A stretch of 28,850 nucleotides of DNA from the IMG/VR virus record IMGVR_UViG_3300012920_000185, positions 1 through 28,850 of that record, one strand, 5' to 3'. The DNA comes from a virus. The position numbers and the translations under genes are program-made. Every line of letters starts with the position of its first letter. The first letter of the stretch is position 1. Under the pieces are notes generated by a model, which worked only from the letters and a program-made list of their open reading frames with translations, did no database searches and was not told the DNA's origin. Shown piece after piece: positions 4,920 to 16,264 of the stretch.

Positions 4920-5759
4920 TTAAAATCCTCCAAATCCAGCTAAAGCTTGACCTGCACCAACTATCTGTGAAAATGGACTAGGTGCTCCTACAGGAGTTCC
5001 AACAAAACCTGATCTTTCTTCTCCATAAGTTCTTATCGGAGCACCAGATAATGCACCAATAACTTGTCTTACTTGTTCTACTGGATATTCTCTTTCTTCT
5101 ATAAAATCTCTATAAGCTTCTGCTAATCTAGCTTGTTCGATACCTCTTGCTGTTGAACCAACTCTACCTATTCCTGTTGCTGCACCTGCTAATGCAGACA
5201 ATTCTGATTGTGCTGCACCTAATTGTGCTGCTCTATCTGCAGCAAATCTTTGTGCTCCTGATTCAAAACCTGCTTGTCTAAGTCTTGATGATGTATCAGC
5301 AACTTGTTGTTGAAATCTTTCTCTACCTAAAACATCTTCAATAGCCATTCTTGAACCACCAAAAGCTCCTGCTCCTACTGCTCTTGCTGCAGCACTTTTT
5401 TGTTGACCTGCAAAAGCTTCTCCTAAATCAGCAAGTGTAGCTTGTATTACTTGCTCTTGATATGGATTCATATATTGTTGTGCAGTTGCTGCATCAAATC
5501 TTTGTGCACCTATTTCTGCAAGTTGACCTGCCTGAGGTAAAATTTGATTAGTAAATACTTCCTGTGCTTGAATTTCTGATGGATCAAGCCCTGCAACTCT
5601 TTCTCCTGTAAATCTTCTATATCCTCTGTTACCTACTCTTTCAGCTTTTCGTAAAGTTCTTTCTTGAATTTCTTTAAAATATTCTGGTATTTGCGAAGTA
5701 ACTGTTTGTTGACTTGGCGCTTGAACTACTGTTGTTGATGGTTTAAAAAGACTACCCAT
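4920..5759 (-). CDS. Putative internal virion protein, Ala/Gln-rich, 279 aa
   Basis: Rich in Ala, Gln, Gly and Arg, with a composition unlike its lysine/asparagine-rich neighbours. A long helical core (about residues 75-215) contains YMNPYQEQVIQATLADLGEAF and repeated AQRFAADRAAQLGAAQSEL-like heptads. A Gly/Ala-rich patch SAAARAVGAGAFGGSRMAIE lies near 120-140. The C-terminus is glycine-rich (GAGQALAGFGGF). Similar Ala/Gln-rich proteins encoded between tail nozzle and large ejection proteins are common in marine podophages, and I read it as a small internal core/ejection protein. The start ATG at 5759 overlaps the GNAT-like gene end by 8 nt. No enzymatic motif is visible. Confidence 0.5.
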   Translation of the reverse strand: MGSLFKPSTTVVQAPSQQTVTSQIPEYFKEIQERTLRKAERVGNRGYRRFTGERVAGLDPSEIQAQEVFTNQILPQAGQLAEIGAQRFDAATAQQYMNPYQEQVIQATLADLGEAFAGQQKSAAARAVGAGAFGGSRMAIEDVLGRERFQQQVADTSSRLRQAGFESGAQRFAADRAAQLGAAQSELSALAGAATGIGRVGSTARGIEQARLAEAYRDFIEEREYPVEQVRQVIGALSGAPIRTYGEERSGFVGTPVGAPSPFSQIVGAGQALAGFGGF

Positions 5760-6207
5760 TGATTATATATGTTCCTCCAATATTTTTATAACCTAATTTA
5801 ATAAAGGCGTTATGTTTTCTTTCAACGTCTTTACCTTGTGTTATTTCGCATAAAGCAGTTAATCTTTTACTTTCTGCGTATTCTTTAAAAACTATCATCA
5901 TAGCTCTAAAGATATGAAAATTACGATATTTAGAATTAACATGTAACCATAGACTTCTTAAAAATCGTTTGTCGCTATACCAAGTTTCGTCTACAGCAGC
6001 GGCCATAGTTCCTATAATAACATTTTCATATTTTACTACTATAACAAAACTATTTTTAATGTAAAATATAATATGATCAAGTAATTTCTTGTTATTTACG
6101 TTACCAAAGTTATATGGTGATTCTGGTAGCCATGTTTTTAAAAGCTCCCTTATTCTAACAGCATCATCAATTCTAGCTTGAGATATCTTATATTTATCTT
6201 TTTCCAT
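5752..6207 (-). CDS. GNAT-family acetyltransferase-like protein
   Basis: 151 residues, the usual length of a single GNAT domain. It begins with a typical first strand and helix (YKISQARIDDAVRIRELLKT). A strand pair follows (FVIVVKYENVIIGTMAAAVD, residues about 54-73), then the region where the acetyl-CoA pyrophosphate loop belongs (LWLHVNSKYRNFHIFRAMMI). The C-terminus holds a GNAT-like KHNAFIKLGYKNIGGTYII end. The canonical Q/RxxGxG/A loop is degenerate here (KYRNFHIF), so activity is uncertain. It overlaps the nozzle gene by 14 nt and the next gene by 8 nt, so it is co-translated with virion proteins. It may acetylate a virion or host protein, or be a GNAT fold used structurally. The fold call is fairly good; the substrate is unknown. 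Confidence 0.6.
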   Translation of the reverse strand: MEKDKYKISQARIDDAVRIRELLKTWLPESPYNFGNVNNKKLLDHIIFYIKNSFVIVVKYENVIIGTMAAAVDETWYSDKRFLRSLWLHVNSKYRNFHIFRAMMIVFKEYAESKRLTALCEITQGKDVERKHNAFIKLGYKNIGGTYIING

Positions 6208-8041
6208 CAGGTCTTATATTAATTCTAATAGTTCCAAATCTCCAATTATCTCCTATACCAGTATTTTCTATTTTTAAACTAGACTGTCTACCACGAATTC
6301 TACTGTTATAAAACCTAGTTGTGTTATTAACTGTAATAGCTTCTCCTGAAGTTTTACTATCATTTGGATAATCTCTTGCTTTTAATGTAATAATTGCATT
6401 ACCTGTCATACTTTGAAAGTCTGGTACTACTTTATTTATAAAACTAAAATTTTCACCATCTGCAATATCTCCATCGCCTGATTGAATAAAAGATGATAAA
6501 GCATTTCCATCTGCATCTACACCTTCTTCATGTCTATAAATTAAACTTCTACCTTTAGTTAAACCATTAATTTGAATGTAAGTATTTGAAGTATTATTTG
6601 CAAAATACTCTGTAGCAAGTGGATTTAATTCAACTCCATTATCTTGATATGTACTTCTAGCTAAATTACCAAAATACCATGTATTTTCTAAATAATTAAA
6701 AATTACATATCTATCTATTTGATCAGAATTACTTGAACAATAATACCATATTATTTCTGAAAAATTAGAAGTTTGACCAGCATATACTTGTTGATATTGA
6801 GTTTTATTTATATCATTAAATACATAATTTAAAACACTACAAGGTATTTCTTGTACCGCACCAGCATACCTAAAAAATTGTCCATCTGACATCCAATAAG
6901 CTACATCGTCAACTACTATTGCTGCATTTAAACCTAATGCACCACAATCATTACCTAATTGTCTAAATCCGAATATAAAAGGTGGACCTACAAAAGACAT
7001 TGAATGCATTGCTGTATCTGTCCATATTAGAATTGTACCTTTAGCAGGTCTAGCACATCTAATTTCACTACCACCTGCAATTCTTTGAGAACCAGCAGAG
7101 TTAGTAACATTAGGTTGAAAAGAATTAAAATCTTCTTGATCACTAAATCTAATAAACATTTTATCTTGACTTGAAGCATCTCCAATAACAGTTTCAGTTC
7201 CCATTAAAATTAAATGTCTTGTTTCTGTAGAAATTACAGATAACGTACTAGATGTAGGAGCGTTTGCAATTACTGTTCCTATATTATCAGTCATACCATC
7301 TGATGTATTCCAGATATAAGTTTTTTTATCTCTTTCTGTAAATATTAAATCTTCTCCCCAATTATTCATAGACCATTGTCTCATATCAAGAGTTACATTC
7401 GAAGATGATCTAGGTGTAGACCATGTTCCTAAATTCCAAGTACCAGTTCCCCAACCAAATCCAAAAGTTTGTTTATCTGGTCCAATTGATATTTGATATG
7501 TTATATCAGCATTTGCAATTTCAGTTTGTGTAGATGTTGCTACATCATTTGATATAATTGTATATGCATCAGCATTTACAATTTCTACAATTTCGTATTG
7601 AGCATCAATACTTGCATTAGAGATACCACCTACACTAACTTGACTACAATTTGATACTTCTATAAAATCTCCTAATTGAGCTCCATGCGTTGCGTGACTT
7701 ACAGTTATATTTGCACTACCATTTGTAGTTGAAAAAACATCAGTTAAGCTATTAGATTGTCTTGTAGGTGTTATATCTGCATTATCACCTGATCTATAAA
7801 CATAGACTTTTCTATCTGTACCTAAACCTTCGTATCTAATACCACTATTATCAAACCATTGATGTAAAGCTCGACCAACTCCTACATAGTAATCTAGACT
7901 AAATTTTTCCCATCCACCTATTTTTTGTGGTAAACCTTTTCTAAATCTTACTTTATCGCAGTTAGACCATCTACCTTCTGCACCAGTTTCAGTGTTTTCA
8001 GTATCTATACCAGGTAAAAAATTTAATTGAGTTAAAGGCAT
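6194..8041 (-). CDS. Tail nozzle / DNA-stabilisation protein, P22 gp10-like
   Basis: 615 residues, beta-rich, opening with MPLTQLNFLPGIDTENTETG. This N-terminus resembles the P22 gp10 packaged-DNA stabilisation family, which forms the tail tube/nozzle plugged onto the connector. Repeated strand patterns containing WIWDT/YIWNTSDG-like turns and single tryptophans suggest a beta-propeller or beta-barrel core. An apparent insertion of about 85 residues (about 100-185, starting VFSTTNGSANITVSHATHG) looks like an extra beta domain. Residues 201-207 (TWNLGTW) recur in the fibre gene at 13543-14379. There is no clear Shine-Dalgarno before ATG 8041; the 41-nt leader holds TATAAT at 8054-8049. Its position after the fibres and before the ejection proteins supports the call. 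Confidence 0.7.
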   Translation of the reverse strand: MPLTQLNFLPGIDTENTETGAEGRWSNCDKVRFRKGLPQKIGGWEKFSLDYYVGVGRALHQWFDNSGIRYEGLGTDRKVYVYRSGDNADITPTRQSNSLTDVFSTTNGSANITVSHATHGAQLGDFIEVSNCSQVSVGGISNASIDAQYEIVEIVNADAYTIISNDVATSTQTEIANADITYQISIGPDKQTFGFGWGTGTWNLGTWSTPRSSSNVTLDMRQWSMNNWGEDLIFTERDKKTYIWNTSDGMTDNIGTVIANAPTSSTLSVISTETRHLILMGTETVIGDASSQDKMFIRFSDQEDFNSFQPNVTNSAGSQRIAGGSEIRCARPAKGTILIWTDTAMHSMSFVGPPFIFGFRQLGNDCGALGLNAAIVVDDVAYWMSDGQFFRYAGAVQEIPCSVLNYVFNDINKTQYQQVYAGQTSNFSEIIWYYCSSNSDQIDRYVIFNYLENTWYFGNLARSTYQDNGVELNPLATEYFANNTSNTYIQINGLTKGRSLIYRHEEGVDADGNALSSFIQSGDGDIADGENFSFINKVVPDFQSMTGNAIITLKARDYPNDSKTSGEAITVNNTTRFYNSRIRGRQSSLKIENTGIGDNWRFGTIRINIRPDGKR

Positions 8042-8082: not shown

Positions 8083-8643
8083 TTATATAAAGTTAAGCCA
8101 ACCTGTTACAATATACTTAGAGTATTTTTTAGATATTTGACTTTTATGAGTATGAGTAAAATCAGATGGCCATAATAAAGTAACACCTTTTTTAGCTTTA
8201 GTTGTTATTTTTTGATATTTAAATAATGTACCACCATCAGGAACATCATTTAGATAAGTCATAAAAACTAACATTCTTTTACTTGTTTGTGATCCTCTTT
8301 CAGAATGCCATAATTTAAAACCTTCATTTTTTTTATAATATTGTATATTATATCCTTCTATTAAACCAAACTTGTCTAAGAAATTAATATCAGGATAATA
8401 TCTTATATATTTTTCAACACATTTAATTAAAAATTTATTATATTTTTTAAATATTTTTTCATTGCTTATTAATGGTATAAACATATCTGTGCTAACTTTA
8501 GCTCTTTTATCAATTTCAGAATCATTTTTATTACCATCTAATACTCGTCCTGGAACATGACGTTTTTTATTATCTTTAAAATATTTTATAATATCGTCAC
8601 AAAGATTAATTGGTGTTTTGAATTCTCTTATAAAACTATCCAT
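8083..8643 (-). CDS. 2OG-Fe(II) oxygenase, prolyl 4-hydroxylase-like
   Basis: 186 residues. The double-stranded beta-helix core lies at about 97-186. Its signature reads YNIQYYKKNEGFKLWHSERG, with candidate iron ligands H113 and E115. A strand MLVFMTYLND and the loop DGGTLFKY follow. After WPSDFTHTH comes the distal histidine (H164 or H166), and SKYIVTGWL supplies the 2-oxoglutarate-binding lysine (K176). This is the P4H/PKHD pattern (HxD...H...K), but with HxE in place of HxD. Such enzymes hydroxylate protein or small-molecule C-H bonds using Fe(II), O2 and 2-oxoglutarate. It is the last gene of the oxygenase/sulfotransferase cassette and starts inside the end of the preceding oxygenase (8-nt overlap). 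The substrate is unknown. Confidence 0.75.
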   Translation of the reverse strand: MDSFIREFKTPINLCDDIIKYFKDNKKRHVPGRVLDGNKNDSEIDKRAKVSTDMFIPLISNEKIFKKYNKFLIKCVEKYIRYYPDINFLDKFGLIEGYNIQYYKKNEGFKLWHSERGSQTSKRMLVFMTYLNDVPDGGTLFKYQKITTKAKKGVTLLWPSDFTHTHKSQISKKYSKYIVTGWLNFI

Positions 8644-9229
8644 CTATATATACATTACAAGCAACGCTTATTCTTTCATGCTTACTTAAATTAGTTTGAA
8701 CAGCATGAGCTACATGAGATGGGAAAATTAAAATATCGTTATTTTTAGGAATAATGGTAAATCTTTGACTATTAAAATTATTAAATTTTTTAAATTCTAG
8801 TTCATAAAAATGTAATATAGTAAATGCTGGATTTGGATTTCTAAATATTATACCACCAGAATTTTTAGGAACTTTTATATAATATACAATAGAAAATTCT
8901 CCATCGTGAGTATGTTCTGCATTAGAACAATCTTTTTTATTACTATTTATCCATAACGGAGAAAGTTTAAATTTTATATTTTCTGGAAGATTAAAGTTTT
9001 TTAAAAAATCCATTACATAAGGTGCAATTGTTTGATGAAACTTATCTACTAAAGGAACACCAGCTGAAATTAGATCAGATTGAAAACCATTAATATTACT
9101 TTTATTTCTTCCTGTTTTTTTATTTTTTTCTTCTTTTAAAAAATCAATAAATTCATTATCTAATCCATGCATATTTTGCAAATTTTTTTTATATATTGGT
9201 GTACTAAAAATACTTTCTATATTTTCCAT
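8636..9229 (-). CDS. Putative 2OG-Fe(II) oxygenase (R-type anchor)
   Basis: 197 residues. The opening SIFSTPIYKKNL is typical of a phage/bacterial 2OG-Fe(II) oxygenase family often found in marine phages (the PF13759-like group, recalled rather than searched). The core motif is LWINSN...AEHTHDGEFSIVYYIKVP, with H106 and H108 as candidate ligands, followed by SGGIIFRNP. NDILIFPSHVAHAVQTN carries the distal histidine (H172 or H175), and HERISVACNVYI carries the 2-oxoglutarate-binding arginine (R186). A GAGGA ribosome site lies about 9 nt before ATG 9229, inside the upstream oxygenase gene, which it overlaps by 13 nt. It is similar in plan to the gene at 10577-11200 but clearly diverged, so this is not a recent duplication. 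Substrate unknown. Confidence 0.75.
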   Translation of the reverse strand: MENIESIFSTPIYKKNLQNMHGLDNEFIDFLKEEKNKKTGRNKSNINGFQSDLISAGVPLVDKFHQTIAPYVMDFLKNFNLPENIKFKLSPLWINSNKKDCSNAEHTHDGEFSIVYYIKVPKNSGGIIFRNPNPAFTILHFYELEFKKFNNFNSQRFTIIPKNNDILIFPSHVAHAVQTNLSKHERISVACNVYIDG

Positions 9230-9765
9230 TTATTAAATTCCTCTCTAGGTACATAAGCACCTAAACTTAAAACTATTCTTAATCTTTTTCCAAACATAGG
9301 TTTAGATCCATGTTCCCATTCCGAAGCAAAATTAATCCATCCTTTTTTATTTTTTACTTTTAGAATATTACCTTCTAAAATTGGATTACCACCTTTTTGT
9401 GCATTTTGTAACATAAATAATAATCTAAAATGAATGTTATTTTTTTCATCTCTAGGATCACTATGTAAATGAACATTTGTATTATCAAATACATTAACAC
9501 CTATAAAATTACCATAGATTTCTTCTTTAAAATAATTTTTAATATTTAATTTTTTCATTAATTCTTTTTGTAATTTTTTAATCTTGTTTGATAAATCACT
9601 TTTATAATTATTCGTGTCACAAAATTGTCTTCCATGACCATTAAATTTAAATATTTCTCTATTTTTATAATTTTTTTTTGCAAACTTTATTATTTCTTTT
9701 TGCAAAGAATCATCTATTTCAAAATTTAAATATGGGTTTATTTCTTTATTAAATATTTTTATCAT
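9217..9765 (-). CDS. Putative 2OG-Fe(II) oxygenase, 182 aa
   Basis: I chose ATG 9765, not the TTG 12 nt upstream, because GGAG lies 7 nt before it and it makes an ATGA overlap with the sulfotransferase stop. The N-terminal half is lysine-rich and helical. The core begins NFIGVNVFDNTNVHLHSDPR, with H101 and D103 as the HxD ligands. HFRLLFMLQ and GGNPILEG follow. WEHGSKPMFGKRLRIVLSLG gives the distal H152 and the 2-oxoglutarate arginine (R163). The full HxD...H...R triad-plus-anchor is therefore present, consistent with an active dioxygenase. It differs in sequence from its two oxygenase neighbours on the left, so the cassette holds several separate lineages. Substrate unknown. Confidence 0.72.
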   Translation of the reverse strand: MIKIFNKEINPYLNFEIDDSLQKEIIKFAKKNYKNREIFKFNGHGRQFCDTNNYKSDLSNKIKKLQKELMKKLNIKNYFKEEIYGNFIGVNVFDNTNVHLHSDPRDEKNNIHFRLLFMLQNAQKGGNPILEGNILKVKNKKGWINFASEWEHGSKPMFGKRLRIVLSLGAYVPREEFNKWKI

Positions 9766-10580
9766 AAAGTTCTCCAAAATTCCATGTTCATATATCTATT
9801 TTTAATTTTTTCTGGTAAAACATTATCTGTTTTCTTTTTAAATATTTTTTTAGATTTAATTGTATGTAATGGTCCACCAAATACTAAATCATTATACATT
9901 AAATTATTTAAACAAAATTGATCAAGTTCTTTAAATCTATGTTTTTTATATATCGGTATTTCTAAAAAAGTATAAATATCTCTTAGAAATTCTTTTGGTT
10001 TTTCAATTAAATTTTTATATTCGAAAAATCTATAATGTTTACCATCAGCAAAATTTATTAGATGTTTTATACCTGCTAATGATGTATCTATAAATCCGTC
10101 TTTTTGCATCAGAATATTACATTTTTCTTCAATTTCATCTCTCCAACATTCTGTAATTATTCTTTCTTCATAAACTTTATTTACAAAAAAGTCTTCATTT
10201 TCTTGTGCCAGTTTAATAAAAGAAGATAAAATTTCGTTAACATCTCTTACTAAAACTACTATTTTAAAATCATAATTTAAATATTTTTTTAACATATTAT
10301 AATTGTATTCACTAGACCAAGGACCTCTATCTATAACATATTTAGATTTAACATTTTTAAAATAATTATTAAAAATATTTTTACTTACATTTTCTATTCC
10401 ATTTTGATATGGAAAATTTTTATACCATTGAGTATTTTTAATTTCTTCTATTCTAAAAAAAATTTCTGGTAAAATACTTTGACCTGATACAGTAATATCA
10501 GGATTTTGATTCAATAAGGAACTTAATAATGTGTTACCTGATCTTGGTAAACCAGATATAAAAAAATATTTTTTTATCAT
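9762..10580 (-). CDS. Sulfotransferase family protein
   Basis: 272 residues. The N-terminal P-loop-like 5'-phosphosulfate-binding loop is FFISGLPRSGNTLLSSLLNQ (residues 6-25), the hallmark of PAPS-dependent sulfotransferases. The second PAPS site, for the 3'-phosphate, is IVVLVRDVNEILSSFIKL (R112, with S119/S120). The C-terminal part (YKNLIEKPKEFLRDIYTFLEIP) matches the late helix seen in this family. The enzyme would transfer sulfate from PAPS to a hydroxyl or amine on a sugar, protein or lipid. It sits between oxygenase genes and overlaps both by 4 nt (ATGA), so the products are made together. Oxygenases create hydroxyl groups, which sulfotransferases can use; that link is an inference. The acceptor is unknown. 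Confidence 0.85.
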   Translation of the reverse strand: MIKKYFFISGLPRSGNTLLSSLLNQNPDITVSGQSILPEIFFRIEEIKNTQWYKNFPYQNGIENVSKNIFNNYFKNVKSKYVIDRGPWSSEYNYNMLKKYLNYDFKIVVLVRDVNEILSSFIKLAQENEDFFVNKVYEERIITECWRDEIEEKCNILMQKDGFIDTSLAGIKHLINFADGKHYRFFEYKNLIEKPKEFLRDIYTFLEIPIYKKHRFKELDQFCLNNLMYNDLVFGGPLHTIKSKKIFKKKTDNVLPEKIKNRYMNMEFWRTL

Positions 10581-11200
10581 AATTTTAATTCAAATCCGTT
10601 TATTCCTACATTTCCTTTTATATAGAAATCACATGATAGTAAGTATCTATCAAAATTTGTTAAATTAGCTTTAGCACTGTGTTTTAAATGAGATGGAAAA
10701 ATAACTAAAAGCCCATCGCTAGGATTTATTGTAAAAGCTTGTGCATTTAACATATTAAAAGAATAATGTTTAAACTGAAAATTACCTGGTAAAAAATCCA
10801 TATTTTCCGGTCTATATAAAACTAAATCACCTGTTCCCTCTGTATTTTTTAAATATAAAATTACTGACACAATAGAATTTGCATGATGATGAATTTGAGT
10901 AAAATCATTTGTTTGATGTTTTGTAATCCATGAATTTTTTAAATATAATTTACAATTTCTTCTGATTTGTAATACTTCATGAAAATATGCATTTACATGA
11001 TTTTCAATAACTTTTTTTAAAGATTTAAATTTTTTATTATTTAAAATATTTTTTTCTTTAGATATATGACCATTACCAACATGTTTCATAAATTCTAATT
11101 TTGTTTTTAGTAAGTTATTTAATATTGGTTTTTCAATATCTATTTTCGTTTCATATACAGGTACAGAAAATAAACATTTCACTTCAGGTTGTTGATCCAT
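10577..11200 (-). CDS. Putative 2OG-Fe(II) oxygenase, 207 aa
   Basis: First gene of the cassette in transcription order. The N-terminus KCLFSVPVYETKID is the usual start of the family of small putative 2OG-Fe(II) oxygenases in marine phages. The core reads NSWITKHQTNDFTQIHHHAN, with H104-H106 containing the proximal ligands, then SIVSVILYLKN and GDLVLYRPE. LLVIFPSHLKHSAKAN carries the distal histidine (H171 or H174), and FDRYLLSCDFYI provides R185 as the 2-oxoglutarate anchor. The ribosome site before ATG 11200 is weak (GAAAG), and 29 nt separate it from the upstream gene. The cassette therefore begins after a small gap, while every later junction in it overlaps. The substrate is unknown; a virion or envelope target is possible. 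Confidence 0.73.
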   Translation of the reverse strand: MDQQPEVKCLFSVPVYETKIDIEKPILNNLLKTKLEFMKHVGNGHISKEKNILNNKKFKSLKKVIENHVNAYFHEVLQIRRNCKLYLKNSWITKHQTNDFTQIHHHANSIVSVILYLKNTEGTGDLVLYRPENMDFLPGNFQFKHYSFNMLNAQAFTINPSDGLLVIFPSHLKHSAKANLTNFDRYLLSCDFYIKGNVGINGFELKL

Positions 11201-11229: not shown

Positions 11230-11664
11230 TTAAACAATAATCCACTGTTGATTTACTTCATCCCATTCATAGTGTTGACCATCATCTGGATAAGGAATAG
11301 GAGCTTCATATGAAGCTGTATCCTCATTAAAAATCCATGAATCAAACATTTTAGGCTCGTAAAAACAATTTCTTTCAGGATCCCATATCCAATCTGGCCC
11401 TGGAAAATTTTTTCTAAATTTTTTATTTTGATTATTTTCATCATAAATATATTCACCAGTTTCTTTATCAACATTATAATATTTATTTTTTTGAGTGCCA
11501 TAAGAACATTGCACATAAGTTTTATCAGAACCAAATAAATTTTGTAAATATGCAATACCTTTTTGTTCTTCTGTTTCGTTTTCTCCTGGTGTTATATTTT
11601 CATTATCAATAAAGATAATATTTGTTACAATATTGTTTGAATCTATTTCTGCAAAATGAGCCAT
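11230..11664 (-). CDS. Conserved marine-phage tail-region protein, 144 aa
   Basis: An acidic, aromatic-rich protein opening MAHFAEIDSNNIVTNIIFID. This opening recurs in small proteins of the tail-fibre region of cyanophages and other marine phages (recalled). It contains YLQNLFGSDKTYVQCSYGTQ, GPDWIWDPERNCFYEPKMF and a tryptophan-rich tail (HYEWDEVNQQWIIV). The fold is unknown to me. Its position directly after the glycine-rich adhesin gene (the ATG at 11664 shares a base with the adhesin's stop) suggests a tail-fibre accessory, assembly or capping role. No catalytic motif is visible. Out-of-frame reading produces a 100-residue shadow that I disregard. Confidence 0.6.
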   Translation of the reverse strand: MAHFAEIDSNNIVTNIIFIDNENITPGENETEEQKGIAYLQNLFGSDKTYVQCSYGTQKNKYYNVDKETGEYIYDENNQNKKFRKNFPGPDWIWDPERNCFYEPKMFDSWIFNEDTASYEAPIPYPDDGQHYEWDEVNQQWIIV

Positions 11665-12494
11665 TATTGAAATCTATACCTTATAATTACACGACCAGAT
11701 CCGCCAGATCCACCGCCTCCGCCACCAGCAGAACCGCCTCCGCCGCCACCGCCTCTTCCAGAAGTACCAGCATTTCCATTAGCGCCGCCTCTACCTTGTT
11801 GACCATTAGCGCCGCCACCATTGCCGCCGCCACCTCTTCCGCCGTCTCCAGTTCCACCTCCGCCGCCACCAGCGTAAGTTCTTGAAGTACCATCAATTGA
11901 ACTACTTTGACCATTACCGCCTCTACCGCCATTGGCTCCAGAACTATTTGTTCCATTTTGGCTTTTACCGCCGCCACCGCCACCAGCTCTCTGAAATCCA
12001 TATCCTCCTCCAGAACCTCCAGCTCTTCCTTGACCACTTGTTCCAGATTTACCACCGCCATTATCGCCACCTCCACCAGAACCTCCGCTTTGACCGTTAT
12101 TAGTTCCAGTTTGAGAACCTCTACCACCTCGTGTATTAGTTTGACTAAATGCATTAGAGTTTCCTCCCGCACCTCCGACTGAAATTGAATAAGCTTGTTT
12201 AGTGACTGCTACAGAGTTTTGAAATCTCATACCTCCTGCACCACCGCCTGCTCCGTGGTTAAATCCTCCATTACCTCCGCCTGCAATAATTAAAACTTGT
12301 TCTAATCTTGCACCATAAGTTGGATTTGTTCCTAAAGCATTAACAGTAAAAGTTCCTGTTCCCATACTATGTATTTTAAAGTTACCATCATATGAAACAG
12401 TTCCGCCTTCTGCTTGTAAAAACTCAAAAGAAATACCGCTTGTAAAACCAAAAGCTTTTGAAGATGCGCCGCCTTTTGAACTAAATATTGGCAT
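11664..12494 (-). CDS. Glycine-rich tail fibre / receptor-binding adhesin-like protein
   Basis: 276 residues. A short ordinary N-terminal part (1-85) leads to VLIIAGGGNGGFNHGAGGGA. From about 85 to 265 the chain is dominated by glycine with Ser/Asn/Arg (runs of up to seven Gly), broken by YGFQRAGG, SSIDGTSRTYAGG and similar loops. It closes with GGSGGSGRVIIRYRFQ, an ending I know from glycine-rich structural proteins of marine phages. Gly-rich domains packed as polyglycine-II helices form the tip of the T-even phage S16 adhesin gp38, so a receptor-binding tip is plausible. The DNA is locally GC-rich (gcc/gga triplet runs at 11690-12180), unlike all neighbours. It lies between a fibre gene and the oxygenase/sulfotransferase cassette. 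Confidence 0.65.
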   Translation of the reverse strand: MPIFSSKGGASSKAFGFTSGISFEFLQAEGGTVSYDGNFKIHSMGTGTFTVNALGTNPTYGARLEQVLIIAGGGNGGFNHGAGGGAGGMRFQNSVAVTKQAYSISVGGAGGNSNAFSQTNTRGGRGSQTGTNNGQSGGSGGGGDNGGGKSGTSGQGRAGGSGGGYGFQRAGGGGGGKSQNGTNSSGANGGRGGNGQSSSIDGTSRTYAGGGGGGTGDGGRGGGGNGGGANGQQGRGGANGNAGTSGRGGGGGGGSAGGGGGGSGGSGRVIIRYRFQ

Positions 12495-12506: not shown

Positions 12507-13484
12507 CTAAGCAAATTGTGTTTGTGAAGCAAATACAGTAAATGTTGCATTAGCAGTTTTAATTGCTGTATAAACATAAGTATCCACTGAATTTGCATTA
12601 CCTTCGTCTGGTGCTTCTCCACCTTGCCACTCAGGCGTAACAGATGAACCATCAACTTGAACAGCATTATTATAATAAGCAGTTCCACCTTGAGTTACTA
12701 AGTGAGCGATAGTCATAGATTCACCAGTGTCCATTACATCATTTAATGAAACAGAAGAATTACCTCTTATGTTAAGAGTATAATTTGCAGATGCATTTGT
12801 TGTGAAATATTGCACTGCACCATCTATAACATCAAAGTTAATAGTTCCAGTTGCTGCTGTTGCAGATACATTTACTTTTTCTGCTAGTTGTTGTATTTTA
12901 CCACCTCCATTAAAAGTAACAAAACCTGTTCCTTTAGGTGATATTGTTAAATCAGTATTTGTTCCGCCTGTTGCTGTAATTCCAGGAGCAGTTGCTGACA
13001 TTGAAACATTTCCTGAAGTTGTTACGGATGTTGTAGTAACATCTCCTAAATCTCCCATTACATCAGTAATAGAACTTCCATCAGAATATACTATTGTTTT
13101 AGCTCCTTGTTTAAGAGCTACACCATTTGCAGCATGACCTGTATTAGCAAAAGTTAAAGATTGTGATCCTGTTGTATTATTAAATAAAATATAATTTTGT
13201 TCTACTGCATCAGTAAAAACATGAATATCTCCTGTTAATGCTCCTGTTAATTCTAATACTTTATTATGTACTTGATCGTCAGTTGCATCATCATCTGTAT
13301 TACTTGTTGAATTATTAGATGTTAAAGTTACATTTGCAGAACCAGCAACATTAACTGCTTGATAACCTGAAACAGAAGCATCTACTCTGTTAAAAACATA
13401 ATTAACTAAATTTCCCCAAGTTCCAGAATTTTCACCTGAAGCTTGTCTTTCTAATTTTAATCTCGATGTAAAACTTGATGGCAT
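12507..13484 (-). CDS. Tail fibre-like protein, 325 aa
   Basis: A beta-rich, Thr/Ser/Asn/Gly-rich protein. It opens PSSFTSRLKLERQASGENSG, then TWGNLVNYVFNRVDASVSGY, an N-terminal module often seen in tail-fibre proteins of marine phages, probably for attachment to the tail. Central repeats of the TTSVTTSGNVSMSATAPGIT and DLTISPKGTGFVTFNGGG type resemble fibre shaft/pectate-like beta segments. The C-terminal half (YFTTNASANYTLNIRGNSSV, then TYVYTAIKTANATFTVFASQ) reads like a virion surface domain. An AGGAG lies 13 nt before ATG 13484, and a promoter-like sequence lies just upstream (13518-13545). The gene is followed by the glycine-rich adhesin 12 nt after its stop. I call it a structural tail component of unknown exact position. 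Confidence 0.65.
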   Translation of the reverse strand: MPSSFTSRLKLERQASGENSGTWGNLVNYVFNRVDASVSGYQAVNVAGSANVTLTSNNSTSNTDDDATDDQVHNKVLELTGALTGDIHVFTDAVEQNYILFNNTTGSQSLTFANTGHAANGVALKQGAKTIVYSDGSSITDVMGDLGDVTTTSVTTSGNVSMSATAPGITATGGTNTDLTISPKGTGFVTFNGGGKIQQLAEKVNVSATAATGTINFDVIDGAVQYFTTNASANYTLNIRGNSSVSLNDVMDTGESMTIAHLVTQGGTAYYNNAVQVDGSSVTPEWQGGEAPDEGNANSVDTYVYTAIKTANATFTVFASQTQFA

Positions 13485-14820: not shown

Positions 14821-15480
14821 TTATTGTCCTCCAGTTAATGTATTTTCGCCTAGTGGACTACCAGGAAACTTGTAATCTGTTCTTCGTCTTCTACGAGCTT
14901 CGTTGTTAAGTGCAGTCACACTTTGTAAATACTTTTGTTGATATATATTATAGTCTTCCATGTTTTTTGTAAAGAGATTTGCTTCTGATAAACTTCCATA
15001 TAAGAGAGCATCTGAAGCATTTTCAGTATACCAATTAGTAGTATTTGTATTAGATAATGGATTAATTCTCCCTTGATATCCTAATTCAATAGTATATTCC
15101 GCATCTGGTGTTGGAGCAACATAAAGAGTAGTATCATCAAAATTAGAAAAATATCTTGGTGTAGATGTTATAGAAGCATTTGGCCAATATTCTTGTACAT
15201 ATTCTAGAGGTTTAATTTCTAAAAATTGTCTTTCATTATTAACAATTATATTAACATAATTTATTAACATTGGTTCAATTGCAGATGGTAGTGTAATAAA
15301 TCTATCTCCAATACTTGTAGATGAATTTACATTTTCATTAAATCCAACTGGATCAATATCTCTTGATAATTTTTGTTGTGTGTTTTCTATAAATGTATCT
15401 AACTGCGCATTAAAATCAGTACCTGTATTTTCAGCCCAAGTTTGTATGTCAGTCTTTAGACTGTTGTATGTCATCGGCAT
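14821..15480 (-). CDS. Head-tail adaptor / tail tubular-like protein, 219 aa
   Basis: It opens with MPMTYNSLKTDIQTWAENTG and a helical segment (DTFIENTQQKLSRDIDP). A beta-rich middle follows (ITLPSAIEPMLINYVNIIVN, then FDDTTLYVAPTPDAEYTIEL). A C-terminal helical part runs through SLSEANLFTKNMEDYNIYQQ to ARRRRRTD. The plan of N-terminal helices, a beta sandwich and a late helix is typical of adaptor proteins that bind the portal ring (T7 gp11 and SU10-type adaptors). Two in-frame ATGs exist (15480 and 15474); either overlaps the end of the glycosyltransferase-like gene by about 30 nt. The long overlap shows the enzyme gene is tightly placed in the connector block. The function follows from shape and position. 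Confidence 0.55.
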   Translation of the reverse strand: MPMTYNSLKTDIQTWAENTGTDFNAQLDTFIENTQQKLSRDIDPVGFNENVNSSTSIGDRFITLPSAIEPMLINYVNIIVNNERQFLEIKPLEYVQEYWPNASITSTPRYFSNFDDTTLYVAPTPDAEYTIELGYQGRINPLSNTNTTNWYTENASDALLYGSLSEANLFTKNMEDYNIYQQKYLQSVTALNNEARRRRRTDYKFPGSPLGENTLTGGQ

Positions 15481-16264
15481 TTTTCTTAACTCCTTCTACG
15501 TCAAATTTGCTCCATACATTTCCAGCAAAAGGATAAGTTCCATAGTGTGTTAAAGGACTAATAACATCAGCAAATATCTTACCACCTAATTTTTGCCACA
15601 ATCTGCAAAAAGCATAATCTTCTGATAAATATCTATTACTTTTTTCATCAATAATACAGTCAAAAAGTGCATAGCAATTATCACTAGAAAATCTTTTATT
15701 ATTTATAATTTGATCACTTGTATATTTTAAATTAGGATATTCTTTTATCATTTTATGAAAAACTTCTTTTTTAATACACATAAAACCTGTTGCTGCTTCT
15801 AAAACTTCTACAAAACCATTTTTTACTCTTAGATTAGTAGGTTCTGCAAAATTAAGATTATAACCCATAGATTTTTGTGCTAAATCTTTTGATCCTGTTT
15901 CTTTAATAAATTTTGGTACTGATTCCCAATCAATAGATTTTCTAGGATATATACCACAAGCAATATCATAATCTGATTTAATTAATCTTATTGCATTCTC
16001 AGCTTTAAATCCAATATCACTATCTATAAATAAAAGATGTGTAAATTTATCAGGGTGTTCTTTATCATAATCTAAAAACTGAGTCACTAAAGTATTTCTA
16101 GCTCTAGTAATTAAACTTTCATTGCCCATAGTATTTAAATGAACTTGAATGCCTTCTTGTTGAGCCTTTGCTGTTAAACTAAGAATACCATGAAGATATC
16201 CTTCTGTTAGTTGGCCACCATAGCAAGGTGTTGCGACCATAACACCATATTTTTTTTCTATCAT
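15449..16264 (-). CDS. GT-A fold glycosyltransferase-like protein
   Basis: 271 residues. It starts with the nucleotide-binding strand YGVMVATPCYGGQLTEGYLH and continues RARNTLVTQFLD. The metal-binding DxD motif is seen in THLLFIDSDIGFKAENAIRL (D81-S-D83). Further on come AATGFMCIKKEVF, a candidate catalytic acid pair in RYLSEDYAFCRLW (E215/D216) and a late histidine (LTHYG, H240) that may bind metal. All key elements of a GT-A enzyme are present. It should transfer a sugar from a nucleotide donor; the acceptor could be the phage's own fibre or capsid proteins or a host glycan. It overlaps the preceding gene by 4 nt and the connector gene by 32 nt. Confidence 0.75.
   Translation of the reverse strand: MIEKKYGVMVATPCYGGQLTEGYLHGILSLTAKAQQEGIQVHLNTMGNESLITRARNTLVTQFLDYDKEHPDKFTHLLFIDSDIGFKAENAIRLIKSDYDIACGIYPRKSIDWESVPKFIKETGSKDLAQKSMGYNLNFAEPTNLRVKNGFVEVLEAATGFMCIKKEVFHKMIKEYPNLKYTSDQIINNKRFSSDNCYALFDCIIDEKSNRYLSEDYAFCRLWQKLGGKIFADVISPLTHYGTYPFAGNVWSKFDVEGVKKNADDIQQSKD

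Follow-up and report, generated by a model that had tools for sequence, protein, structure and literature searches.

Here, we observe that a marine phage carries, between its glycine-rich tail adhesin and its tail nozzle, a cassette of five enzyme genes. It probably represents an allele of a hypervariable tailoring island whose enzymes post-translationally modify this adhesin. The analysed DNA (IMG/VR record IMGVR_UViG_3300012920_000185, positions 1 to 28,850; "the window") was compared with about 80 related phages and about 290 related loci, some of which are overlapping records. The cassette spans positions 8083-11200 on the minus strand, where five consecutive ORFs encode four 2OG-Fe(II) oxygenase-fold proteins and one PAPS-type sulfotransferase. 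A sequence-only reading had proposed this gene content, with overlapping gene ends. Both the ORFs and the enzyme classes were confirmed, the latter by Pfam for oxyA, oxyC, oxyD and sulT and by alignment and an AF2 model for oxyB.

All cassette genes lie on the minus strand. oxyA (10577..11200) and sulT (9762..10580) overlap by 4 bp (ATGA). The same extent of overlap joins sulT and oxyB (9217..9777), if oxyB starts with the ATG at 9765 instead of the listed TTG at 9777; the ATG is likely the true start. oxyB overlaps oxyC (8636..9229) by 13 bp, and oxyC overlaps oxyD (8083..8643) by 8 bp. The order oxyA-sulT-oxyB-oxyC-oxyD was found again in other marine viral contigs, and dN/dS values of 0.11-0.36 for every cassette gene in every comparison indicate purifying selection. 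Thus, the cassette is not a chance arrangement.

By profile match, oxyA and oxyC are predicted 2OG oxygenases of family Oxy_5 (PF13759; 8.9e-16 and 58.6 bits for oxyA, also phrog_81; 7e-17 and 62.1 bits for oxyC), while oxyD is a predicted prolyl-4-hydroxylase-like 2OG oxygenase of family Oxy_3 (PF13640, 2.9e-8, 35 bits; phrog_61, 8e-37). All three exceed the Pfam cut-off of 27 bits. The metal motifs noticed in the sequence-only reading are present in a refined form: the first motif of oxyA and oxyC is HxH (HHHANS and HTHDGE, respectively) and not the canonical HxD, which counts against their proposed activity, with a conserved distal H; oxyB carries HSD; and oxyD shows HSE within the facial triad HxD/E...H (H113-S-E115, H164). 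Weak PDB matches of oxyD point to bacterial prolyl 4-hydroxylases.

The divergent member is oxyB (H105-x-D107, H156, R167), which has no Pfam match and no match among GenBank phages, and thus no annotated relative. H105 and H156 are invariant in a diverse alignment. The AF2 model derived from this alignment (pLDDT 80.4, pTM 0.81) superseded a first model from close homologues only, which reached a pLDDT of 59 and gave no structural match. In a Foldseek search, prolyl and aspartyl hydroxylases were the best solved matches. Probabilities were 0.97-1.00 for hydroxylases, prolyl ones included, with a best E value of 4.5e-4 and TM scores of about 0.4-0.6. The viral collagen prolyl hydroxylase vCPH of PBCV-1 (PDB 5c5u) ranked second, and AlkB is absent among the best 50 matches. 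Judged from this model, oxyB is a predicted 2OG oxygenase with a DSBH fold and the motif HxD...H...R.

sulT matches PF13469 (2e-12) and PF00685 (4e-11) over the cut-off. Its N-terminus carries the 5'-PSB motif SGLPRSGNT, and R112 and S120 of the 3' motif R112..S120 are invariant in the alignment. With the 5'-PSB loop and the 3' R...S motif both in place, it is a predicted PAPS-dependent sulfotransferase. The nearest PDB sequences are protein-tyrosine sulfotransferases (TPSTs), with matches in the P-loop region only (E 0.002-0.4). Sulfation of tyrosine or serine would need no prior hydroxylation. PAPS must be supplied by the host, and SAR11 hosts are not known to assimilate sulfate, which counts against the adhesin-modification reading. 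The sole genome-scan match for a host, a Maricaulis MAG contig, is not a reliable host call.

The island is bordered downstream by the tail nozzle (6194..8041, minus strand; phrog_3287, 6e-85), a label taken over from the earlier reading and supported by nozzle gp16 (PDB 8zkk, E 8e-5). Its upstream border is fib325 (12507..13484, minus strand), a fibre-type structural protein (phrog_5906, E 5e-29) that is syntenic in relatives. The Gly-rich adhesin (11664..12494, minus strand; PF21722 Gly_rich_2, 5.6e-7; phrog_2295) consists of 37% Gly and 0.7% Pro. The proposed location of the cassette between adhesin and nozzle holds, with the refinement that a gene for a conserved 144-aa protein (11230..11664, minus strand; phrog_7759) lies between adhesin and cassette. 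This protein is present in most islands, follows the adhesin in pelagimyophage HTVC008M as well, and may be an assembly helper or a minor tail protein.

In the about 290 loci, the adhesin-to-nozzle site is a hypervariable oxygenase island with 0-12 oxygenases per complete island. Some islands add a halogenase, a carbamoyltransferase, a methyltransferase or a sulfotransferase; the pairing of hydroxylase and sulfotransferase is one rare variant, the majority of islands being without sulfotransferase. All PF13640/PF13759 loci of 13 long contigs (41/41) lie inside the fibre-nozzle interval, which makes up 15.7% of the bases, and no match to an island enzyme occurs downstream of the nozzle in the about 290, partly overlapping, loci. 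This makes the linkage to the tail module nearly absolute, in support of the sequence-only reading. The array of adhesin, 144-aa protein and oxygenases was found again in HTVC008M, which is unrelated. Counter to this pattern, the T4-like cyanophages and Campylobacter phage CP21 have some of these enzyme genes located away from adhesins.

Two diverged relatives (L003/L005) share the block of adhesin, 144-aa protein and cassette at 58-83% identity (adhesin 75-78%, 144-aa protein 75-77%, oxyA-oxyD 58-70%, sulT 83%), versus 29-48% in the flanking genes (fib325 29-34%, nozzle 40%), and thus the block moved as a unit. The nearest relatives by backbone (nozzle 86%) have a different adhesin (49%) and different oxygenases. 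The joint transfer of adhesin and cassette supports the sequence-only reading. A partial Mantel test showed weak general coupling between the similarity of adhesins and that of cassettes (r 0.14-0.20, p about 0.02), which was set aside as main evidence.

Adhesin composition was compared with enzyme content in 58 non-redundant adhesin clusters, 45 with the island enzyme OX2 and 13 without. Adhesin proline amounts to 6.7% with OX2 versus 3.2% without (p=8.5e-7, the best of 260 tests). The association was replicated in 32 new clusters from unused loci (p=1.2e-4), is seen in each of the two nozzle clades (p=1.4e-4 and 1e-3), keeps its direction in 13/13 backbone-matched pairs and persists under permutation within clades (p=5e-6). 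GC does not explain it, and proline of the 144-aa protein, the nozzle and fib325 gives no signal (p 0.42, 0.26 and 0.25, respectively). Neither adhesin Trp with halogenase nor adhesin residue content with sulfotransferase, for which there are few independent cases, is among the leading associations. OX1, a second island oxygenase, and OX2 probably hydroxylate adhesin prolines; an indirect coupling, e.g., an adhesin subtype and an enzyme inherited together, could also produce the correlation. The window has neither OX1 nor OX2, and thus the association bears on it by analogy, together with its proline-poor adhesin: the sulT-type adhesin has the lowest proline (58/58) and the second-highest arginine content.

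OX2 is phrog_2954 (gp67 of HTVC023P), published as "ferrochelatase". This assignment was rejected, as Pfam matches none of three members at E values up to 0.5. OX2 exhibits invariant H108 and D110, a nearly invariant K109 and a distal H161, i.e., HKD...H like 2OG enzymes. Its profile finds no 2OG match among PDB sequences, and thus the motif and a profile similarity to OX1 (probability 89%) are the basis for regarding it as an oxygenase.

Either a tail protein or the host envelope had been proposed as the target of the cassette. Since the proline content of the adhesin follows the oxygenase content, in contrast to that of three neighbouring proteins, the comparisons point to the adhesin and not the host envelope. 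If LPS, a glycan or a surface protein were modified to exclude competing phages, with the late tail operon used for timing only, neither the proline association nor its absence in the neighbours nor the co-transfer of adhesin and cassette would be predicted, and late expression beside tail genes would be a poor moment for an envelope change. Sulfotransferases and carbamoyltransferases are often glycan-active, which counts for the envelope. PMC7029224 interprets the glycosyltransferases of the pelagimyophage host-recognition cluster as such envelope modifiers. Overall, we consider an envelope target unlikely. Modification of another tail virion protein (144-aa protein, fibre or nozzle) instead of the adhesin appears still less probable: the 144-aa protein adjoins the cassette, shows co-transfer as tight as that of the adhesin (77%), and a partial Mantel r of 0.20 fits as well, but proline of none of these proteins is related to OX2.

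The genes could also be auxiliary metabolic or repair genes, with roles in 2OG/nitrogen signalling, heme/iron or AlkB-like repair, as suggested for cyanophages and pelagiphages: NtcA/2OG drawdown and repair of DNA have been proposed (PMC3037559), as have ferrochelatase-2OG partner AMGs (PMC9599517; PMC11561400). Such roles are very unlikely here in view of up to 12 different copies per island and the absolute linkage to adhesin and nozzle. Moreover, the 'ferrochelatase' carries HKD...H instead of a Pfam ferrochelatase match, and the oxyB fold resembles protein hydroxylases rather than AlkB. The set of halogenase, carbamoyltransferase, TylF methyltransferase, sulfotransferase and 2OG enzymes resembles natural-product clusters that would tailor a phage-directed small molecule or peptide, the adhesin association being incidental. 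This idea was dropped as hardly credible, because the islands showed neither a scaffold-forming enzyme nor a precursor peptide; it also leaves the adhesin association unexplained.

According to the preferred reading, in which the island enzymes are presumably active on the phage's own adhesin, modification would precede or accompany virion assembly inside the infected cell. In most relatives, the 2OG oxygenases OX1 and OX2 would act on adhesin prolines, with halogenase, carbamoyltransferase, methyltransferase and extra oxygenases as optional additions. The window would represent a different allele: four other oxygenases and a sulfotransferase replace OX1 and OX2, and the adhesin is rich in arginine and almost devoid of proline. 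From this, it would follow that non-proline side chains are hydroxylated and sulfate is added to the adhesin. The receptor-binding surface would thereby change in charge and hydrogen bonding, which may affect host binding.

Mycobacteriophage virions are glycosylated by phage-encoded glycosyltransferases, a case of phage enzymes decorating their own virion, albeit with sugars as chemistry and other genes. Viral 2OG protein hydroxylases include the mimivirus collagen hydroxylase and vCPH, both of eukaryotic viruses with collagen repeats, in contrast to bacteriophages, a Gly-rich adhesin and an exchangeable multi-enzyme island here. Cyanophage enzymes (PrnA/VirX1 halogenase, Nol-like carbamoyltransferase, 2OG, sulfotransferase) belong to the same families, and in S-CAM8 and HTVC008M such tailoring genes adjoin a Gly-rich adhesin, but their function was left unassigned or guessed as antibiotic or metabolic, and some of the copies are found at other genome positions. 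HTVC023P-type pelagiphages, which are related podoviruses, have several non-orthologous 2OG genes close together, one always adjoining a 'ferrochelatase' (Wittmers et al. 2022, PMC9599517). There, the genes are treated as auxiliary metabolic, with no substrate, whereas here the 'ferrochelatase' is OX2, the genes sit in the adhesin-nozzle island, and the composition of the adhesin varies with OX2. HTVC023P itself carries the island, with Gly-rich gp59-62, OX1 and OX2. Fe(II) oxygenases rank with the most frequent genes in metaviromic islands, where their inferred function is 'host recognition' (PMC3909814), and these islands, like the pelagimyophage cluster (PMC7029224), comprise hypervariable tail fibre or recognition genes. 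The accessible parts of both papers propose no enzymatic role on the adhesin, contain no co-variation test, and describe no set of sulfotransferase, halogenase and carbamoyltransferase for a podovirus island. For a modification system of this kind, which the sequence-only reading took to be undescribed in phages, no earlier description was found in the searched open-access literature, but clusters of phage 2OG genes were already known (PMC9599517).

We tentatively suggest, as a possibility rather than an expectation, a combinatorial post-translational code for marine phage tail adhesins at a fixed locus, of which the window would be the hydroxylation-plus-sulfation allele. If so, prolyl and other hydroxylases, halogenases, carbamoyltransferases, methyltransferases and sulfotransferases would be shuffled together with Gly-rich adhesins, and receptor specificity would evolve via swaps of side-chain chemistry as well as of sequence. 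The genes for 2OG oxygenases and their 'ferrochelatase' partners rank with the most frequent ones in ocean phages that still lack an explanation. One time series reports them as enriched in seasonal viral chronotypes (PMC11561400), and they have been read as host-manipulating metabolic genes. Should they act on the phage's own adhesin, this literature would concern host recognition instead of host metabolism, and a chemistry layer of the virion (hydroxyproline, halogen, carbamate, sulfate) would become testable in cultured pelagiphages.

The window, 28.85 kb at 31% GC, is a piece of a marine podovirus genome whose portal protein is 44-48% identical to those of Roseobacter phages CRP-901/902 and Pelagibacter phages HTVC023P/HTVC027P. 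Its late genes lie on the minus strand and are transcribed in the order fibre protein (12507-13484), Gly-rich adhesin (11664-12494, PF21722), 144-aa protein (11230-11664), the cassette oxyA-sulT-oxyB-oxyC-oxyD (11200 down to 8083), nozzle (6194-8041) and a GNAT acetyltransferase (5752-6207), which overlaps the nozzle stop. Consecutive cassette genes overlap by 4, 4, 13 and 8 bp, with the oxyB start taken as the ATG at 9765. A 271-aa protein among the tail genes (15449-16264) belongs to phrog_1574 and has a weak glycosyltransferase match.

Pfam assigns oxyA and oxyC to PF13759, oxyD to PF13640 and sulT to PF13469/PF00685; no Pfam family was matched by oxyB. The best remote matches of an oxyB-relative profile include 2OG genes from neighbouring islands, as we call the fibre-to-nozzle intervals with their exchangeable enzyme genes. 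In an alignment of 16 sequences H105 and H156 are invariant, and oxyB itself has D107 and R167 in place. The AF2 model built from this alignment (pLDDT 80, pTM 0.81) resembles prolyl hydroxylases, a viral collagen prolyl hydroxylase and aspartate beta-hydroxylase (probability 0.97-1.00, best E 4.5e-4); some sequences in the alignment clearly match a 2OG profile and may thereby favour this fold, and close homologues alone gave a poor model. Judging from alignment and model, oxyB is an oxygenase. Gene layout, Pfam, motifs and the oxyB alignment and model thus confirm the four oxygenases and one sulfotransferase that the sequence-only reading had placed between adhesin and nozzle. The first metal motif of oxyA and oxyC is HxH, so their metal site may be non-canonical.

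In nozzle-related loci the island is hypervariable: its length ranges over 1.6-8.8 kb and its oxygenase genes number 0-12, with a median of 5 across the 31 complete intervals. It can also carry tryptophan halogenase (PF04820), carbamoyltransferase, DUF6445, TylF-type methyltransferase and sulfotransferase genes. Linkage to the tail genes is strict: in 13 long contigs, 41 of 41 merged PF13640/PF13759 loci fall inside this interval, which makes up 15.7% of the bases, and 0 of about 1,000 island-enzyme matches lie 3' of the nozzle (~790 kb of downstream sequence from 287 nozzle loci, including some overlapping records of one contig). Unlike the island, the GNAT acetyltransferase is conserved backbone, present in nearly all close relatives and up to 98% identical. 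The island is wholly or partly inverted in L018, L024, L040 and HTVC027P; since such islands run against the tail operon, they may be driven by a promoter of their own, or exchange may work in both orientations. The L009 region is also listed with these loci among inverted islands or island parts. L068 (3-1783) shows a further tailoring combination, in which a TylF-type methyltransferase accompanies a halogenase-cluster ORF and an oxyB relative. A 110-aa protein (family s110, e.g., L018 7809-8138) often stands at the island end directly before the nozzle.

Conservation of the cassette as a block, left as a check by the sequence-only reading, was found in IMG/VR loci L002-L006, which repeat the five-gene order, and dN/dS of each gene is 0.11-0.36 in all comparisons. 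Between the window and L003/L005, identity is high for the adhesin (75-78%), the 144-aa protein (75-77%) and the cassette (oxyA 58-60%, sulT 83%, oxyB 63%, oxyC 59-60%, oxyD 69-70%), but low for the surrounding genes (w141 47-48%, fibre protein fib325 29-34%, nozzle 40%). The reverse holds for L018 and L019, where a nozzle 86% identical to that of the window goes with a different adhesin (49% in L019) and different oxygenases. This contrast indicates that adhesin, 144-aa gene and cassette were exchanged as one between diverged phages. Synonymous divergence between L002 (1447-3141) and the window is 0.20-0.38 over oxyA-oxyC and 0.64-0.69 over oxyD and nozzle; this jump suggests a recombination breakpoint within the cassette.

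Among the oxygenase families of related islands, OX2 equals phrog_2954, which is labelled ferrochelatase (members HTVC023P gp67 and the HTVC008M 'putative ferrochelatase'; examples at L015 9302-9922 and L103 5028-5669). OX2 has no Pfam ferrochelatase match and carries a conserved HKD...H; its profile resembles the PF13640-type OX1 (probability 89%) and gave nothing useful against PDB. On sequence grounds, the pelagiphage phrog_2954 proteins, with their HKD...H motif, are relatives of 2OG oxygenases. In published work phrog2954 and phrog61 have been handled as auxiliary metabolic genes (PMC9599517; PMC11561400); 'ferrochelatase' claims of this kind may rest on a wrong label. The phrog_274 family, labelled DNA endonuclease V, also catches OX5 oxygenases; at L070 2297-2776 this misleading label falls on a protein that Pfam assigns to 2OG-FeII_Oxy_3.

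In a first round of 30 loci, OX2 presence against adhesin proline ranked top of 220 enzyme-by-residue tests (p=3.9e-6). Three further scans yielded 80 loci in which adhesin and nozzle are both complete, or 58-59 adhesin clusters at 80% identity. Median adhesin proline is 6.7% in the 45 OX2-positive clusters versus 3.2% in the 13 OX2-negative ones (p=8.5e-7; about 2e-4 after Bonferroni correction over 260 tests), with OX2 absence backed by a loose six-frame search and an N-run check. The association was replicated in 32 clusters outside the discovery set (p=1.2e-4). It also holds within both nozzle clades (p=1.4e-4 and 1e-3), in every one of 13 pairs chosen for similar nozzles, and when labels are permuted within clades (p=5e-6). 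In a regression, OX2 added 3.1 points of proline (t=5.1) and OX1 1.7 (t=2.1), with no contribution from GC, island length or other enzyme count. Proline content of the 144-aa protein (p 0.42), nozzle (0.26) and fib325 (0.25) is unrelated to OX2. Since only adhesin proline follows OX2 among these proteins, the correlation, in which clusters and nozzle matching fall short of a full phylogenetic correction, points to the Gly-rich adhesin as substrate and proline as OX2 target.

Similar arrangements occur in other phages. In pelagimyophage HTVC008M the adhesin (PF21722) and a 144-aa homologue are followed by OX0, OX2, OXD, OX0, OX0 and OX1, which lie on the opposite strand, and a halogenase is close by; in cyanophage S-CAM8 a PF21722 protein is adjoined by oxygenases, a 144-aa homologue, OX2, OX1 and a carbamoyltransferase. 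By contrast, one halogenase copy of S-SSM7 and the halogenase of Campylobacter phage CP21 lie elsewhere. Metaviromic islands were recorded as containing Fe(II) oxygenases, for which the function inferred was 'host recognition' (PMC3909814), cyanophage 2OG genes were linked either with DNA repair or with nitrogen signalling (PMC3037559), and human EGLN3 prolyl hydroxylase shows structural likeness to phage 2OG proteins (PMC12774648). A paper on collagen-like phage fibres regards the prolyl hydroxylases needed for collagen as absent from bacteria and viruses (PMC3368898). We found no proposal of tail-adhesin modification by these enzymes in the open-access literature, a result that does not establish novelty.

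The sulT protein has the P-loop SGLPRSGNT and an R112...S120 motif whose two residues are invariant among distant relatives. Distant relatives occur in cyanophages and marine viruses, and a Sulfotransfer_3 gene of unclear function was reported for two genomes from metagenomes that belong to the OM43-phage lineage (PMC10580990). The nearest solved sequences are protein-tyrosine sulfotransferases, similar over the P-loop region only. The sulfate from sulT would go either on tyrosine, serine or threonine or on a hydroxylated residue. PAPS must come from the host, for which the sole cellular-genome match, a contig in a Maricaulis MAG, is a weak clue.

The cassette had been thought to hydroxylate and then sulfate tail fibres or the host envelope. 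The replicated OX2-proline association favours the adhesin as hydroxylation substrate, and its modification by island enzymes is the best-supported function and a fairly probable one. That sulT sulfates the adhesin is plausible, if tentative, and a strict coupling of hydroxylation to sulfation is unlikely. The window island has neither OX1 nor OX2, and its adhesin type is the lowest in proline (rank 58/58) and second-highest in arginine (z 3.1) among the clusters. By analogy with OX2 islands, oxyA-D would therefore act on residues other than proline, and sulT would add sulfate.
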